Positions 1,840 through 9,217 of a DNA stretch of 9,217 nucleotides are shown here, one piece after another. The position numbers were made by a program, and so were the translations under genes. Numbering within the stretch: the first letter of the stretch is position 1; each line of letters opens with the position of its first letter. Source of the DNA: Bacillota bacterium (lineage in GTDB: Bacteria > Bacillota_E > Sulfobacillia > Sulfobacillales > Sulfobacillaceae). The notes under the pieces were generated by a model that was given only the letters and a program-made list of their open reading frames with translations, made no database searches and had not been told where the DNA came from. The stretch is taken from positions 1-9,217 of the forward strand of contig JAKAAL010000118.1 of NCBI GenBank assembly GCA_021802375.1, given 5' to 3'.

Positions 1840-3048
1840 ATGGATTTCTCCGAGTTCAAGCGGGCGATGCATGACGGGGTCGCATTTGAATTTACCGCGA
1901 AACTGCAAGCAGCCGGTGGAACGAATCATAAGGTATTTCCTCCAACCTATTTGAATGATGATCCGAGTACAAAAGCGAAAATTAAAGCGCGATATGCGAG
2001 AGAAACACGGATTATGGACGATGGACCGGTTCCGACGATTTTGTTGGATTCCATTCCTTCGCAGGCGAATCGTATGGAACAGGCATTGTTGTGCGCTATT
2101 CAGGATGACCAAATGGATTTCACCTTGCCGGTATACGCTGTAACCATTCCAGACCATGGCACTGTCACGTCCATAGATGCGCCGCACCGGGCCTTGGATG
2201 TGATATTTTTGGATTCGGATATTGCGGGTAAGTCGTTATTGAACACTGAATTTGGTCAACAGCTGGCGAATGCGGTGCCCGCTAATGCGACGGCTCTTTA
2301 TCAATATGCTCCGACGGCATTGGTTTTTGGAATGTGGAACTCACACTCGGGCAAAGCGGGAGGCCGCTTTGCCCGGATCATTGCCTCGGAAATCATTGGG
2401 TGGGGCAATATCGTTGAGGGTATTAAAACAGCTAGCCGCATCGACCCGCTGGAGATCGGCAACAAGTCCGAACTGTACAAAGTGGAGGGCGCCGAACGCT
2501 GGGTTTTTGAAAAGCCCAAAGGGGCCAAAAAGGCAGTTAGTCCCGCTACCGTTGGACATGGAAACATTCCGCCAACGATTAACGCAGCCACTGGGGGGGT
2601 CAGCCTCGACCATATCCAACAGCAAACCACGGTTTCAATTCTTGCCCTCCAGGCTCTGCATTTCCCCAATGAAATGGGGACCGTTGTTAAAGGTCGCGAT
2701 GAAGCTGGTCGGGCGGTCTTGGCCGCGTTAGCCCTGGTCGCGGTGAACCTGCAGTTTAATCAGGGGTATCAATTGCGATCAGGATGTCTATTGCAGGCAC
2801 TCGCATCTCCTGTGTGGAGGATTTTGAGTCGCATCGCCACGGATGACCGAGAATGTTCTCTTACACTAGAGGAATCCGTTGCCATCTTTCAACAAGCCGT
2901 GAAGGCTGCGGAAGAATTTGGCTTGGTATGGTGCGCAGATATGCCTACCCTGATGCCCTCCGCCAAGCTCATTAAACTTGTTCAAGAAAGCGACACCCAC
3001 CGAATTTTTGACCTCGAACCAGATCAAGCGTCGAGCCAGGAGGGCTGA
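1840..3048 (+). CDS. csb1: Type I-G Cas7, Csb1 (GSU0053 family)
   Basis: Csb1 is the Cas7-type backbone subunit of the type I-G Cascade; several copies polymerise along the crRNA spacer. The 402-residue product carries the family's hallmark blocks: KVFPPTY at 31-37, LLDSIPSQANRMEQAL at 68-83, DAPHRALDVIFLDS at 113-126, PTALVFGMWNSH at 158-169, then the GGRFARIIASEIIGWG segment and a late LRSGCLLQAL block. Length is normal for the family. An in-frame extension to ATG 1756 exists, but its 28 extra residues are not family-like and the promoter lies inside it, so ATG 1840 is preferred. It is the first gene of the operon; its stop lies 4 nt before csb2, whose ribosome binding site is inside its last codons. 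Bases 2297-2336, residues 153-166, recur in reverse complement at the right end of the window. Confidence 0.95.
   Translation: MDFSEFKRAMHDGVAFEFTAKLQAAGGTNHKVFPPTYLNDDPSTKAKIKARYARETRIMDDGPVPTILLDSIPSQANRMEQALLCAIQDDQMDFTLPVYAVTIPDHGTVTSIDAPHRALDVIFLDSDIAGKSLLNTEFGQQLANAVPANATALYQYAPTALVFGMWNSHSGKAGGRFARIIASEIIGWGNIVEGIKTASRIDPLEIGNKSELYKVEGAERWVFEKPKGAKKAVSPATVGHGNIPPTINAATGGVSLDHIQQQTTVSILALQALHFPNEMGTVVKGRDEAGRAVLAALALVAVNLQFNQGYQLRSGCLLQALASPVWRILSRIATDDRECSLTLEESVAIFQQAVKAAEEFGLVWCADMPTLMPSAKLIKLVQESDTHRIFDLEPDQASSQEG
2297..2336 (+). repeat. 40-nt segment of csb1 repeated inverted at window end
   Basis: These 40 bases inside csb1 match the reverse complement of 9178-9217 at every position. 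They encode residues 153-166, including the conserved PTALVFGMW block. The base after the match (2337, G) differs from its partner at 9177, so this side is the true boundary. The other side cannot be seen because the partner reaches the window edge. Confidence 0.95.
3038..3044 (+). promoter_or_regulatory. Ribosome binding site of csb2
   Basis: AGGAGGG sits inside the last codons of csb1, 8 nt before the ATG at 3053. It decides the csb2 start in favour of 3053 over the in-frame ATG at 2978, which would overlap csb1 by 71 nt and add 25 non-family residues. Confidence 0.8.
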
Positions 3049-3052
3049 TGGT

Positions 3053-4513
3053 ATGCTGAATATCGGGATAGAGTTTTTGGCAGGGCGTTACTATGCCCAA
3101 GATCCCCATTCAGCCCAGTTGCGTGCGGAGTGGCCCCCTCATCCCGACCGCTTGTTTTCGGCATTGGTCTCCACGGCTTATGCCCGGGCTGGGGAGCCAA
3201 CACTCGATCCCGCAGAGCGAGCGGCATTACTGTGGTTGGAAGGTCTTCCTGCTCCCGTCTGGAGCGGCCCCGTGATGTTGGGAACGGGGCGGTTAATGCA
3301 ATCATTCGTGCCGACCAACGCGGTGGATCTGCGGACCGTAGGCGGCAACCGTCTGATTCAATTAGACGCCTTGCCAGAATATCGTTCGCGGCAGTCTCGA
3401 AGTTTTGCGTCCATTGCTGTTGATACACCGGGATATTGGACATGGCCGGATGCGGAAGTGGGTCAGCATGCGGGGGCCGTGAAACGGTTAGTCGAAGGTG
3501 TTGCGAGGTTGGGGGCGAGTTCTTCCTTTGTGCGGCTATGGCTCGAGTCACACCCGCCGGCCGCAACATTGATTCCGGCACCATCTCATGCCGAAAACTC
3601 TGTCGCAATCCGCCTCCCTCATATTGGACGCCTGCAATCCCTTGAACACGCTTTTGCGGCCAATCGCCGACCTAGTTTTAGTATCCCCATCACCTATGCC
3701 CCGCCCTATGAGGGGGCACCAGCAGAATCGGCGGCGCCATCGCCGTGGGCGGCGCTGAGCTATTTTCTGAAGTTTGACCACCCCGTGCGCGATGACATCG
3801 CACAGGGATTGATCTGGAGTGAGGCACTGCGTCGTGCTGTGTTATCCCGGGCCGGCCAGGCCGGGGAGATCCTCGCGGTCCTACATGGGCATGCGAAACT
3901 AGGCCACTGTGCGTTTATTGCGGTGCCCGATGTCGGATATGCACACAGCGATGGCCACCTGCTTGGTGTGGCGGTGCTCCTGCCTTCCGATCTGCCACTC
4001 GGTGACCGTGAAGCCATTTACCAGGTGCTAGCACGAGTGGACCGCGTGGTGGTGCGGGGCCAAGTCGTTGGGTTGACGTCAGTCGCGTCCTTGCCCTCAA
4101 ACCGCGTACCTAGGGGCCTTCGTAGTGAGCGATGGAGTGGGCCCAGGGGAGGAACGACTGATTGGGTTTCCGTGACGCCCGTGGTATTTGACCGATTTCC
4201 TAAAAATCGACGAAGAATCCTGCCAGTGATCCAAACCATGGCTCAGTGGGCCGGATTACCGGAGATCCTAGATGCTCAATTAATCCATGGAACATCCATA
4301 CTGGGTGGGGTGTTCGCTCAAGACTTCATAACAGAGCGTCGGCCGTCTGGAACACCGCACTTTGTGAGTCATCTGTCCGTACTGTTTGCAAAGCCGGTGC
4401 ATGGCCCAATTCTGATGGGTCAATTGAGAAATTTTGGACTGGGACTTTTTATTCCCGTGGTGAAGAAGGAGGTTGGCGATGAAGACGACCACCACCGTAA
4501 TCATAAAATTTAG
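3053..4513 (+). CDS. csb2: Type I-G Cas5-Cas6 fusion, Csb2 (GSU0054 family)
   Basis: Csb2 joins a Cas5-like half, which holds the 5' handle of the crRNA, to a Cas6-like half, which cuts the CRISPR repeat RNA and stays on the 3' hairpin. In this 486-residue product the N-terminal half shows the family block EWPPHPDRLFSALV at 26-39. The C-terminal half ends with the Cas6-type glycine-rich loop in GPILMGQLRNFGLGLFIP at 451-468, preceded by HLSVLFAKPVHG. A histidine-rich block with H278 and H280 precedes GYAHSDGHLLG, a conserved-looking region of the family. I cannot say from sequence which histidine is catalytic. The last 14 residues are charged and His-rich, and their codons overlap the start of cas3 by 35 nt, which favours translational coupling. 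The start at 3053 is supported by AGGAGGG at 3038. Confidence 0.92.
   Translation: MLNIGIEFLAGRYYAQDPHSAQLRAEWPPHPDRLFSALVSTAYARAGEPTLDPAERAALLWLEGLPAPVWSGPVMLGTGRLMQSFVPTNAVDLRTVGGNRLIQLDALPEYRSRQSRSFASIAVDTPGYWTWPDAEVGQHAGAVKRLVEGVARLGASSSFVRLWLESHPPAATLIPAPSHAENSVAIRLPHIGRLQSLEHAFAANRRPSFSIPITYAPPYEGAPAESAAPSPWAALSYFLKFDHPVRDDIAQGLIWSEALRRAVLSRAGQAGEILAVLHGHAKLGHCAFIAVPDVGYAHSDGHLLGVAVLLPSDLPLGDREAIYQVLARVDRVVVRGQVVGLTSVASLPSNRVPRGLRSERWSGPRGGTTDWVSVTPVVFDRFPKNRRRILPVIQTMAQWAGLPEILDAQLIHGTSILGGVFAQDFITERRPSGTPHFVSHLSVLFAKPVHGPILMGQLRNFGLGLFIPVVKKEVGDEDDHHRNHKI
4466..4472 (+). promoter_or_regulatory. Ribosome binding site of cas3
   Basis: AAGGAGG inside the csb2 coding region lies 6 nt before ATG 4479. 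A TTG at 4473 is in the same frame but directly abuts this site, so ATG 4479 is the start. Confidence 0.8.
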
Positions 4514-7500
4514 CGAGTTTTTCCGACTGGTCACGGGATTTGCTCCGTTTACATGGCAGTCCCGGATGGCCGAGGAGATCGCAGCGCAGCGGCGGTGGCC
4601 TGATCAGATTGCCTTGCCGACCGGTGTGGGGAAAAGTAACGTCGTTACGATATGGGCGTATGCCTTGGCAATGGATCTTCTGGATACGCACCAGGTGCGC
4701 CGCATGCCCCTACGCCTGATTTATGTGGTGGATCGACGCATTATTGTGGATGCCGTGGACCAGCAAGCACAAGCCATGGCGACTCTTTTCGCCCAGTCGG
4801 AGGTTCCGGGGATTCGCACTATGGCCGCGGCATTGCGCCCGTACCCCGAGGCGCCCGCCCTGCAAGTAGCGCGCGCACGGGGGGGCGTGCCATCCCGACC
4901 ATTGTGGACACGGGCACCGAATCAGCCAACCATTCTTACCAGCACGGTGGATCAGGCCGGATCACGGTTGCTGTTTCGTGGATATGGCATCTCGCCAGGA
5001 CAACAACCCATTCATGCGGGGTTACTGGGCATAGATTCCCTGTTTGTATTGGATGAAGCACACCTAAGCACTCCGTTCGCGCAGACGCTATTCGCGATCC
5101 GTGGTGCGCAGAAGGAAAGAGAAGCCATGGCAGGGCTGTTACCTTTATCCGTGGTGACGATGTCCGCCACGTTACCTGGAAATGAGGGCGGGTGGGCGTT
5201 TACGCTGAATCCGGCAGAGACTGAAGAATTAGCGGATCGGCTCTGCCGCCCTAAGTGGATGACAATGCAACGCATCCCTCTTACTACGCACAAGGTGCCA
5301 TCTGAGTTGGGCGACGCCGATATGGCGGAGGATGCGAATAATCAAGAAATCGAAGCGGAGCAGTCTAAAAAGACGCCTGATGATTTTTTTGTGAACCGGT
5401 CTCAATTGCAATCGGCCATTGTCACGCAAGTCGCCCGCATCACGAAGGACGTAGGATCAGGGATAGGGGCGGTGGTGGTGGATCATGTAGCAACCGCTCG
5501 TGCCATATTCACCACATTGAAGAAGAAAGCCGCATACGACAAAGCAAAAGAAGGAAATATTCGTGATGTGGTTTTACTGACGGGCCGTATTCGCGGCTAT
5601 GACCGCGACGCCTTGCTCCGTCGGTGGCTACCACAAATGCAAGCACAGCGCACCGGTGATACCGACGAGGGGGGAGTGGTGTGGGTTATCGCCACGCAGA
5701 CGATTGAAGTGGGGGCCGATTTTGATTTTGACGCGCTGATTACCGAATGTGCACCGCTTCCCGCCCTGCGGCAACGGTTAGGACGATTGAATCGACTGGG
5801 CCGAATGACAAGTGGCGTGGGAACGATTGTGCGGCCGGAACACGCCAAAGGCATCTATTCGGATGCGGCACTACGGGCTACATGGGATTGGTTGTCCCGT
5901 CCCGTGAGCGGCCAATACCCAAAGCCGATGAGTGATGCGGCTCTATTCGCTTTGCCGTCATCGTTCAACGAGCTGTCCTCGGCAGAAGTGGACACTGTGA
6001 CCATCGATGGGTCATCCGCCGCGTTGGATAGAGAGATCGCGCAAAATCCCCCGATCGGTACCGAGGATCAGCCGCTAGATGCCCCGATTGTTCTCCTCCC
6101 GCACATTGAGGCATGGTCACAGACTCGTCCCAAACCTCGATGGGAGTCGGATATCACCCCGTTTTTACATGGCAAACAGACCCGCGTGCCGGATGTGCAT
6201 GTGGTTTGGCGCATGGATCTGAGGCAAGACCTATTGCTGCGTGCGTCGCAAGATGAGGAATTAGAAAGCCAGATTGCCGATTATTTGTCATGGGTGCCGC
6301 CCGTGAATGGCGAATCCTTAGACGTTCCGATCTGGGCCGTGCGGGAGTGGTTGGAAGGGGTTGCGGTGCAGCCTCTGCTGGCAGATTTTGATAGCACGGC
6401 GATGGATGCTGTTGACCCTAAGGATCCTAAACAAGGAGAGCGCCGCATGGCATGGCGATGGGAAAGGCCTCATGTGAAGCAATCACAGAATATCGCAAGA
6501 AAGGCCAAACCGTCTGCGTTTTACGTTGTCGCACCTGAAGACATTCATCCCGGCGATACGATTTTGGTTCCAGCAGACTACGGGGGAACCGATGCGTGGG
6601 GGTTGGATCTATGGCCAGACTCTAAAAAGTCCACAGTACCCGTTGTGGATGTCGGAGACTTCGCATCAGCGGTGCAAGGCCGCCGGCACCTGCGACTCAC
6701 TCCCGATTTGATTCAAGCGGGAGTAGCACCCGGCCCCCCTGCCGATATTCCTTGGCGTGCCGCTCTCACCGACCTTGTGGCTTTGACGGGATCTGATACT
6801 TCCCGGGCTGATTTTCGTGCGGCATTGGACCAATGGTTGCAACTTGTGATGCCACTCGTTAGGCCGGAATTGGAATCTATCATGAAGGAATGCCGCGACT
6901 ATTTGCCATCCACGACATGGCAGCTATACCCGGATTCTCTTGGATCCGGCATCGTGATTTTATGGTATGCCAAAGCGCAGACCGAGATGCTCGATGAGGC
7001 TGATGATGCAACAAATTGCTTGGGCGATCAGCCGGGGTTGACGTTGCCTACCTTACAGGAACATCAAGAGGCGGTTTCTGCATGGGTAGATTTGTATACA
7101 CAACACGGCCTAGTTCCAGCGGATTTGGCTGAAGTAGCATGTTGGGCAGGAAAATATCACGACCTGGGCAAACTTGATCCGCGGTTTCAATTGATGATGC
7201 ATGGGGGTGATGTCGTTGCCATGATGGCGGACACTGAACCCATAGCCAAATCCTCTATAGACCCGCGTGATCGACAGGCATTTACCCGGGCTCAACAATC
7301 CGCAAAGTATCCCCAGGGGCAACGGCACGAGGAACTCTCGGTACGGTTGGCTCAATCGCTGGCTTTCGAAGGCATGGATCACGACCATTTGTCTCTGCTG
7401 TGGCACTTGATCGGTACGCACCACGGGTGGGGACGCCCCTGGTTTCCCGCGAATGAAGATCCGGATCCCAGGATCATTACGGCGATCTATCAAGGGCGAC

Positions 7501-7667
7501 AAATTCAGGGAGCGTCTACACCGTGTCTTGGTCAACTCAATTCGGGATGGATCGACCAATTTGAGCAATTACAAGCTCGTTATGGCTTTTGGGGACTGGC
7601 CTATCTGGAAAGTATTGTACGACTGGCCGACTATCAAGCATCCGCTACCCAAGGAGGGCTGCAATGA
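4479..7667 (+). CDS. cas3: Cas3 helicase-nuclease, C-terminal HD (type I-G)
   Basis: Cas3 is recruited to target DNA bound by Cascade, unwinds it with ATP and degrades it. The 1062-residue product starts with the superfamily 2 helicase: a Q-motif-like FTWQ near 24-27, Walker A LPTGVGKS at 46-53, DEAH at 192-195, SATLPG at 229-234, and motif VI RQRLGRLNR at 431-439. The HD nuclease is at the C-terminus, with H862, the HD doublet H894-D895, H950 in RHEE, and H976, H981 and H982 near HHGWG, so the expected metal ligands are present. Helicase-then-HD is the reverse of the common HD-helicase order and is known for Cas3 of GSU0053/0054-type systems. No frameshift is visible, so the gene looks functional. 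It overlaps csb2 by 35 nt at the start and the csb3-like gene by 4 nt at the end. Confidence 0.95.
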   Translation: MKTTTTVIIKFSEFFRLVTGFAPFTWQSRMAEEIAAQRRWPDQIALPTGVGKSNVVTIWAYALAMDLLDTHQVRRMPLRLIYVVDRRIIVDAVDQQAQAMATLFAQSEVPGIRTMAAALRPYPEAPALQVARARGGVPSRPLWTRAPNQPTILTSTVDQAGSRLLFRGYGISPGQQPIHAGLLGIDSLFVLDEAHLSTPFAQTLFAIRGAQKEREAMAGLLPLSVVTMSATLPGNEGGWAFTLNPAETEELADRLCRPKWMTMQRIPLTTHKVPSELGDADMAEDANNQEIEAEQSKKTPDDFFVNRSQLQSAIVTQVARITKDVGSGIGAVVVDHVATARAIFTTLKKKAAYDKAKEGNIRDVVLLTGRIRGYDRDALLRRWLPQMQAQRTGDTDEGGVVWVIATQTIEVGADFDFDALITECAPLPALRQRLGRLNRLGRMTSGVGTIVRPEHAKGIYSDAALRATWDWLSRPVSGQYPKPMSDAALFALPSSFNELSSAEVDTVTIDGSSAALDREIAQNPPIGTEDQPLDAPIVLLPHIEAWSQTRPKPRWESDITPFLHGKQTRVPDVHVVWRMDLRQDLLLRASQDEELESQIADYLSWVPPVNGESLDVPIWAVREWLEGVAVQPLLADFDSTAMDAVDPKDPKQGERRMAWRWERPHVKQSQNIARKAKPSAFYVVAPEDIHPGDTILVPADYGGTDAWGLDLWPDSKKSTVPVVDVGDFASAVQGRRHLRLTPDLIQAGVAPGPPADIPWRAALTDLVALTGSDTSRADFRAALDQWLQLVMPLVRPELESIMKECRDYLPSTTWQLYPDSLGSGIVILWYAKAQTEMLDEADDATNCLGDQPGLTLPTLQEHQEAVSAWVDLYTQHGLVPADLAEVACWAGKYHDLGKLDPRFQLMMHGGDVVAMMADTEPIAKSSIDPRDRQAFTRAQQSAKYPQGQRHEELSVRLAQSLAFEGMDHDHLSLLWHLIGTHHGWGRPWFPANEDPDPRIITAIYQGRQIQGASTPCLGQLNSGWIDQFEQLQARYGFWGLAYLESIVRLADYQASATQGGLQ
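7651..7657 (+). promoter_or_regulatory. Ribosome binding site of the csb3-like gene
   Basis: AAGGAGG lies 6 nt before the ATG at 7664, inside the end of cas3. It decides the start over the in-frame ATG at 7589. Confidence 0.8.
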
Positions 7668-9007
7668 GCATCGTTACCATGTCGGCAATCAATGCCGAAT
7701 ATTTCCCCCTCAACTTTCTAGCGGCTTTGGGATTGCAGCAAGTGCTGTGTCGAGAAACAGGACGCGACGTGCGGCTACATTGGGAGCAACCCCCTTTCTG
7801 GACGGCCGTCATTACCGGTCTCGACTCGTTTGGTCAAATCACGACGATTTTGCAAGAGGCTGCTTGCAAGGTTTCTAGCGATCCTGTATGGGTAGGGATG
7901 CAAGAAATGCCTGATGGATCTGTGGCCACCGGGGTCGCGCAAATAGCCATTGCCACCTATCGTGAATATATGCAATCCATCGCACTGGACGTTGAGGCCC
8001 GGCGGTGGCTGGGGTTGGTCACAGAATGGCCGGAAAACAAAAAGAAATCAAAGGAAGCCATTACCGATGCCAAAAAAACGGCACGGAGAGCAGAATCAAA
8101 ACTTGCTGCGGCACAAAAATCATTGCAAAGCGTGCGAAATAGCGCCTGGCAAAAGGCGAGCCAAGTGATGGTCCTTGAAGAAAAAGCTCGGTTATCCGAA
8201 GAAGCTGCTTTATGTGCTGAAGCTGCCGAGGCAGATGCTACCACGGATGCGACACTCTCCAAAGCGGTAGGTAAAACTCGAAAGACCGCCCAAACCGATC
8301 AGAAAAAGCTGTTGGCCGCTCGGGATACGTTAGGAAAATTTCACAGCAAAATGGCCGAGGCTCTTGAGTGTGCGGATGAGGCAGCAGAAATTGCTCACAG
8401 GGCCGGCAACGATTTAGTGGAGGTTGAAAACGCATTAGAAGGCAATCTTGAGCCCGATCTACATTACGCGTCTACTTCACGCCTGCACATGTTGACCGGT
8501 GGGCAAACGAACCTATTTTTGAAATTCATTCGTGAAGCAGCTATGGTAGCGGCTCACAAGCCTGATGCGTTTACTGAAGGCCTACAGGGGCCATGGCGTT
8601 TCGAAGATTCTCCAGCACAGCAAGGACAGGGATGGGATGAAACGTCGTTAGGATGGTACACGAATACTCAGCGTGGGTGGGCGTATTCAGCTGGCAAACC
8701 TGAAAACATGAAGAAAACTACCACGGCTAGTGTTGCATGGCTTGCGGGGGAGGGTTTGTCATCCTTGCCTTCGTGGATTGGGGGCAAGGAAGCGAGAACG
8801 ACTGGAATTCTTGATCAGGGATTTACGTTCCCACTGTGGAACACTCCGTTGAGTCTTGCTGTCGTGCGTCGTCTGTTGATGAGTGTGGATAAGGATCACC
8901 CGGAGCAATGGCGACTACGTGGGGTAACAACTGTGATGCAATGTGAAAAGGGTGCAAGCAGCACCGAGTACAAGCCCGTATGGCTTTCGCCACGGGTAGT
9001 GTGGTGA
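7664..9007 (+). CDS. csb3: Csb3/Cas8-like subunit with coiled-coil insertion
   Basis: Position after csb1-csb2-cas3 and the overall pattern point to the Cas8-like subunit of type I-G (Csb3), which would recognise PAM/target DNA in the effector complex. The 447-residue product begins with PLNFLAALGL near 15-24, a block typical of large-subunit N-termini. Residues ~124-259 are Ala/Lys/Glu-rich with no proline and only three glycines near possible turns, so probably a helical coiled-coil hairpin. Globular sequence resumes with SRLHMLTGGQTNLFL at 270-286 and FTFPLWNTPLSL near 387-398. Without the insert the protein would be about 310 residues. The start ATG at 7664 overlaps the cas3 stop (ATGA) and has AAGGAGG 6 nt upstream. 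Family assignment rests on context and weak motifs; Csx17, the other large subunit of this subtype, is longer and less likely. Confidence 0.7.
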   Translation: MSIVTMSAINAEYFPLNFLAALGLQQVLCRETGRDVRLHWEQPPFWTAVITGLDSFGQITTILQEAACKVSSDPVWVGMQEMPDGSVATGVAQIAIATYREYMQSIALDVEARRWLGLVTEWPENKKKSKEAITDAKKTARRAESKLAAAQKSLQSVRNSAWQKASQVMVLEEKARLSEEAALCAEAAEADATTDATLSKAVGKTRKTAQTDQKKLLAARDTLGKFHSKMAEALECADEAAEIAHRAGNDLVEVENALEGNLEPDLHYASTSRLHMLTGGQTNLFLKFIREAAMVAAHKPDAFTEGLQGPWRFEDSPAQQGQGWDETSLGWYTNTQRGWAYSAGKPENMKKTTTASVAWLAGEGLSSLPSWIGGKEARTTGILDQGFTFPLWNTPLSLAVVRRLLMSVDKDHPEQWRLRGVTTVMQCEKGASSTEYKPVWLSPRVVW

Positions 9008-9051
9008 TGCGCGAACCTCTAGTGCCGCCGAAAAGCTGGGAGGTTCGCGCA
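9008..9051. promoter_or_regulatory. Perfect 12-bp inverted repeat, possible CRISPR leader element
   Basis: TGCGCGAACCTC at 9008-9019 and GAGGTTCGCGCA at 9040-9051 are perfect inverted repeats around a 20-nt loop, starting directly after the csb3-like stop codon. No U-tract follows and the loop is long, so it is a poor intrinsic terminator. From memory, arms reading GCGCGAACC and GGTTCGCGC are common between the last cas gene and the first repeat of type I-C and related loci. This makes a leader-associated element plausible, but I could not check it. Confidence 0.5.
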
Positions 9052-9177
9052 CGGTGCGGCGCAGGGGATTGTGTACTTTTTATAGGTTATGACACTACCA
9101 AATTCGGAATGCCAGAATGGGTACGCGGGAATGGTAGCGTCAAGCCTTGCTCCAAGCGGGATTGCGGGGGCAGGGGT
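9052..9177 (+). other. Unassigned downstream stretch, possible CRISPR leader
   Basis: These 126 bases follow the inverted repeat and contain no convincing gene. There is a short AT-rich part around 9069-9092, then GC-rich sequence with a weak CTTG-CTC-CAAG hairpin near 9144-9155. If an array begins near the window end, this would be the leader and perhaps a first repeat. With a single possible unit nothing can be defined. Confidence 0.3.
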
Positions 9178-9217
9178 CACATTCCAAAAACCAATGCCGT
9201 CGGAGCATATTGATAAA
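9178..9217 (-). repeat. 40-nt inverted copy of an internal csb1 segment
   Basis: The last 40 bases are a perfect reverse complement of 2297-2336. Identity stops abruptly at 9177 and runs to the final base, so the real length may be longer. In the csb1 frame on the minus strand, the copy would hit a TGA at the junction (bases 9179-9177). Possible origins are a chimeric or mis-assembled contig end, a true inverted partial copy of csb1, or a CRISPR spacer derived from csb1. Confidence 0.95.

Follow-up and report, generated by a model that had tools for sequence, protein, structure and literature searches.

The 9,217-nt stretch of DNA analysed here (the window) ends in a 40-nt inverted copy of its own csb1 gene, and we put at about 0.86 the probability that this tail is an artefact of amplification, library preparation or assembly, judging from the letters of the contig rather than from reads. 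Very probably the contig ends at the start of a CRISPR array. By its profile matches, the window carries a type I-G CRISPR-Cas effector operon consisting of csb1/cas7g, csb2, cas3g and a Cas8g-like gene, and this operon is followed by a type I-G leader with the array start expected at 9176, a result that is new but ordinary (Table 1). Read literally, the end of the contig would be added to the lists of self-targeting or autoregulatory CRISPR loci; the geometry of the leader fixes the repeat start and exposes the probable false join, and measuring the distance between leader motif and match is a check that applies equally to other contig-terminal 'self-spacers'.

Table 1. Features of the window, with the evidence on which each assignment rests
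Feature	Positions	Strand	Evidence
csb1 / cas7g, type I-G	1840..3048	+	Pfam PF09617 1.1e-42; TIGR02570 6.2e-20; PADLOC Cas7g
Source of the 40-nt copy, inside csb1	2297..2336	+	exact inverted pair
csb2 / cas5-6g	3053..4513	+	TIGR02165 6.2e-71
cas3g	4479..7667	+	TIGR02621 3.8e-199
Cas8g-like large subunit	7664..9007	+	NF049934 2.6e-38; PADLOC Cas8g 3.6e-26
CRISPR leader	9008..9175	+	alignment with the L001 leader
First leader motif, inverted pair GCGCGAACC ... GGTTCGCGC	9009..9050	+	also in related leaders
Second leader motif GGTACGCGG, 7/9 bases of GGTTCGCGC	9120..9128	+	ends 47 bases before 9176
Expected first CRISPR repeat, start	9176..9184	+	motif spacing; base fit to four related repeats
csb1 antisense tail, probably chimera-joined inside 9178-9184	9178..9217	+	exact inverted pair, repeat-profile fit, weak fold

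Comparison of the tail with csb1 revealed 40 of 40 identical bases between 9178-9217 and the reverse complement of 2297-2336, as the original prediction had stated; such a match is indeed far beyond chance in 9 kb, with 3.5e-17 reverse-complement matches of 40 nt expected in 9,217 random bases of equal base frequencies. The gene carrying 2297-2336 had been named cas7 (csb1), an assignment with which the Pfam, TIGR02570 and PADLOC matches agree. The match runs to the last base of the window, making 40 nt a lower bound on the length of the copy, and 6,841 nt lie between the two arms of the inverted pair. The residues coded by 2297-2336 belong to the FGMWNSH region of Csb1, which is well conserved across the eight relatives aligned, and because the matched stretch codes for conserved residues we take csb1 to be the original and the contig tail to be the copy. 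The sharp break that had been claimed at 9177 holds for the letters, the window having T where the csb1 antisense has C, but not for the join itself, which may lie anywhere in 9178-9184.

Several observations concern the operon and its surroundings. The protein encoded at 7664-9007 bears the name 'Cas3-extension family' in NCBIfam and Cas8g in PADLOC; 'Cas3-extension' was not found as a literature term among the matches listed. One of the four relatives of this Cas8g-like protein comes from a Sulfobacillus MAG (75% identity over 82% of the protein), and a csb1 relative at 90% is also named from a Sulfobacillus MAG. The Cas8g-like protein has a long variable stretch (roughly residues 140-260), of which relative P0003 has a shorter version, and a structure search with its alignment gave no relative (two matches, at E 0.42 and 0.61). 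Neither cas1 or cas2 nor any other adaptation gene was found among the six window proteins scanned with Pfam and NCBIfam profiles. The array itself lies outside the view, the window including no more than the opening bases of a single repeat. An HD-domain phosphohydrolase gene precedes the CRISPR operon (486-1106; Pfam HD above the cut-off, the NCBIfam model below it), and upstream of this gene a perfect palindrome at 73-94 (10-base arms, 2-base centre) and an imperfect A/T-rich palindrome at 258-281 were noted by eye, both having been missed by an inverted-repeat search with a longer minimum arm; they are possibly operators. Two near-identical direct repeats of 18 nt (1293-1310 and 1349-1366), 56 nt apart, lie upstream of csb1.

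Relatives of csb1 were found in 10 of the 154 genomes of the class, the best in G001 at 65% identity and the next at no more than 45%, with G136 and G137 at 44%. A search of genome contigs with csb1 returned one relative, locus L001 of G001, which is the nearest relative whose DNA was compared and has the same gene order, followed by a leader and then a CRISPR repeat; the corresponding search with the Cas8g-like protein returned none. With Cas3 as query, 22 plasmid records matched, all below 60% identity, and no phage did, while the Cas3 of the Thermus type I-G locus L005 is 28.1% identical to that of the window. The repeat that follows the L001 leader has four copies in the G001 genome at no more than 3 mismatches; another contig carries three of these copies, at distances of 72 and 74 nt, and the repeat was counted as 37 nt since, by eye, a G precedes all four copies.

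The stretch between the Cas8g-like gene and the tail resembles the L001 leader, with an alignment score of 108 against a mean of 27 and a maximum of 59 in 500 mononucleotide shuffles, and removal of the first motif still left a score of 58 (shuffle mean 17.8, maximum 44.5). That first motif, the inverted pair GCGCGAACC ... GGTTCGCGC, is common to L001, L054 and L055 as well as to the type I-C leaders L003 and L004, and the L005 leader has its GGTTCGCGC half. When 8900-9177 was used as a plasmid query, 9 records matched, 8 of them from Thermus, covering no more than 23% of the query; two Thermus loci with the shared motif adjoin a type I-C cas3, and in both the CRISPR array begins about 138 bases past the motif, which argues that the motif belongs to the leader. 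The leader as plasmid query matched 19 records, the best again from Thermus and the others weak, and the leader-motif pattern is present in 1 of the 42 genomes of the order. Leaders of both type I-G and type I-C, from different bacteria, carry the pair or its GGTTCGCGC half, and this motif may be, at our own guess, a binding site of the spacer-integration machinery. One promoter-like site was found inside the leader (9089-9118; 0.2 expected), and Rfam gave no match within the window. The strand at 9001-9217 folds better than shuffles (z -2.95), as expected from the first inverted motif; the folded span includes the tail, so this value is uninformative on the junction. A coding gene downstream of cas8g was rejected, as the 57-aa frame at 9007-9177 has no domain in Pfam or NCBIfam and its stretch is leader, and the frame at 9007-9213 was likewise rejected, having no relative in the protein collection.

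Within the leader, a second motif indicates where the array should start. Among the 117 9-mers in 9051-9175, GGTACGCGG is the sole one with at least 7 matches to GGTTCGCGC, and equally good 9-mers number 17 of 9,209 on the whole plus strand; this 117-9-mer scan was our control, the second-motif pattern having been loosened to take in GGTACGCGG. The distance from GGTTCGCGC to the first repeat is exactly 47 bases in all three other type I-G arrays with this leader (Thermus L005, L054 of G136 and L055 of G137), and L001 has 46 bases between the end of its motif TGTTCGCGC, at 16761, and the repeat (47 for a 36-nt repeat), the repeat starts for this comparison being set by hand from inspection of the arrays. 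With the motif ending at 9128 and a spacing of 47 bases, the first repeat is therefore due at 9176. The alignment of the window and L001 leaders puts the repeat start at the same place within a base; the bases just before it are GGGCAGGG in the window (before 9176) and GGGCAGG in L001 (before the 37-nt repeat). In the type I-C loci L003 and L004 the second motif was not found with the pattern used. For the comparison of repeats we took the four arrays with the leader motif (L001, L005, L054 and L055) and left out two arrays without GGTTCGCGC (L056 of G088 and L058 of G005), a locus with no array and a contig end near (L057 of G003) and a locus with one chance-like pair (L059 of G037).

Position by position, all 9 bases at 9176-9184 occur in at least one of the four related repeats; at three of these positions a single repeat supplies the match. 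The first two (GT, 9176-9177) are not csb1 bases, yet fit the repeat start, and the following seven (CACATTC, 9178-9184) fit the csb1 antisense and the related repeat profile alike. Past 9184 the fit to the related repeats drops to 3 of 7 bases, with the identity to csb1 carrying on. Of 18,342 7-mers in the window (both strands), 12 fit the profile at repeat positions 3-9, so that this appearance would seldom result from a blunt join at an arbitrary point; before 9178, CACATTC itself occurs twice, both times on the minus strand. It is therefore probable that the join falls within the first repeat, at a word of some seven bases common to both sequences, and the organism's own repeat would carry this word too, as we infer from the repeats of its relatives. 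Another candidate, the tail as the system's own CRISPR repeat copied from csb1, was rejected on the basis of the 3/7 fit past 9184 and the absence of a strong hairpin: the tail folds at -3.4 kcal/mol compared to -8.7 to -18.7 for five related repeats, and against the G001 repeat it scores 2.0 (500 shuffles: mean -1.5, maximum 17.5).

The same geometry bears on whether the tail could be the array's first spacer, acquired from the system's own cas7 for self-targeting or repression of csb1, an origin that the original prediction had offered. The tail does follow the leader in the right orientation, matches its own genome perfectly in the manner of a self-spacer and, at 40 nt, is near the spacer lengths implied by the repeat spacing of ~70-78 nt in related arrays. 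On the csb1 side, TTC stands 5' of the matched stretch, as would be compatible with the type I-G PAM, reported as TTN in PMC9638904. Taking the PAM from another organism in this way, the flank shifts the odds towards a spacer by as much as 16-fold and counts against an artefact, under which it is a 1 in 16 coincidence. However, a spacer requires a preceding repeat, and here the leader runs to 9175 and the match starts at 9178, while related arrays begin their first repeat at the base equivalent to 9176. Moreover, 9051-9175 aligns with a leader and contains no recurring word of 9 or more, and the fit of 9178-9184 to repeat starts would have to be a coincidence at the 7-mer frequency given above. 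Because no repeat precedes the match, a spacer is strongly disfavoured; with 9008-9175 being leader and the repeat due at 9176, the evidence contradicts this origin, and we rejected the self-targeting reading as very unlikely despite the fit of the TTC flank to the PAM.

An off-pathway acquisition, in which a csb1 prespacer was joined near the leader end without duplication of the repeat, would place the tail next to the leader-repeat junction and could account for the TTC flank, but the match to csb1 begins at the third base of the expected repeat instead of at its boundary, and the six proteins scanned include no cas1 or cas2. The integrase attaches a prespacer's ends to the side of the repeat rather than to the leader, and we regard such an event as extremely improbable. 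A real junction, at which the leader of a type I-G array in a Sulfobacillus-like bacterium would drive an antisense piece of csb1 without a leader-side repeat, is likewise very improbable, whether that piece were left over from aberrant self-acquisition or acted on the operon as a restraining antisense or guide element.

The simplest reading of the junction is a join at the shared word. The true sequence would lead from the type I-G operon through the leader at 9008-9175 into a first repeat from 9176, with GTCACATTC or a near variant as its opening bases. A strand that ended early in this repeat would have continued on the csb1 antisense strand, 6.8 kb away, in which the word CACATTC(C) is present too. 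The faulty step may have been whole-genome amplification, library preparation or assembly, and further faults in library or assembly would give the same trace; an overlap of 40 bases may mirror the k-mer or minimum-overlap setting of an assembler. CRISPR arrays are hard to assemble and are natural contig ends, and the contig would have stopped at this place since arrays assemble poorly; the L001 contig breaks off 11 bases past its first repeat, and the contig with the other G001 array ends 8 bases outside a repeat. The inverted partner, its location less than 10 kb away (6,841 nt), the short shared word and the contig end at an array together give the profile of a chimeric read. Of the 475 amplification chimeras in PMC1855051, the inverted ones numbered 406, of which 337 spanned less than 10 kb, and at least 2 complementary junction bases were present in 93.5% of the inverted class below 10 kb, so that inverted chimeras of less than 10 kb with a short complementary word are the commonest class there. 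A chimeric assembly end, such as an inverted amplification chimera, had been among the origins first proposed, and it is the one that best fits the leader geometry and the inverted partner within 10 kb. The original prediction had overlooked the leader, the position of the junction within the opening bases of an expected repeat and the short word that the two joined sequences probably have in common.

Identical junction letters would also arise from a real rearrangement in the cell, by recombination between the first repeat and the csb1 antisense at the shared word, which would have put a piece of csb1 in inverted orientation behind the leader, possibly in part of the population. Such a rearrangement would, however, break or displace the array, whereas a repeat stands in its ordinary place after the leader in four related loci (L001, L005, L054 and L055, with L001 showing one repeat). 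The window also stops after 40 bases of csb1 antisense, and nothing was found in support of a second inverted csb1 fragment downstream, the remaining origin first proposed. On balance a cellular rearrangement is unlikely. Two sequence searches for the junction in viral contigs gave 0 matches each, and further searches there found no relative; a pattern for the hypothetical repeat matched once in each of 25 viral stretches and twice in none, which we take as chance.

Compared with known cases, the artefactual join that we favour shares with the inverted chimeras of multiple displacement amplification in PMC1855051 the inverted orientation, the distance below 10 kb and the short junction word, which in the window is inferred; those chimeras were seen in raw reads of an amplified E. 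coli cell, whereas the window is known from a contig end alone. With the type I-G system of Thioalkalivibrio sulfidiphilus, as described in PMC9638904, the window has Cas7/Csb1, Csb2, Cas3 and a Cas8g-like protein in common, and the repeats of the window's relatives are similar in being ~36 nt with a hairpin (PMC9638904). Unlike in T. sulfidiphilus, the order in the window is csb1-csb2-cas3-cas8g with the leader directly after cas8g, and no adaptation genes are among the six proteins scanned (PMC9638904). Like the self-targeting spacers in PMC6990116, the tail perfectly matches a gene of the same genome; unlike them, the matching piece stands in the window without a leader-side repeat.
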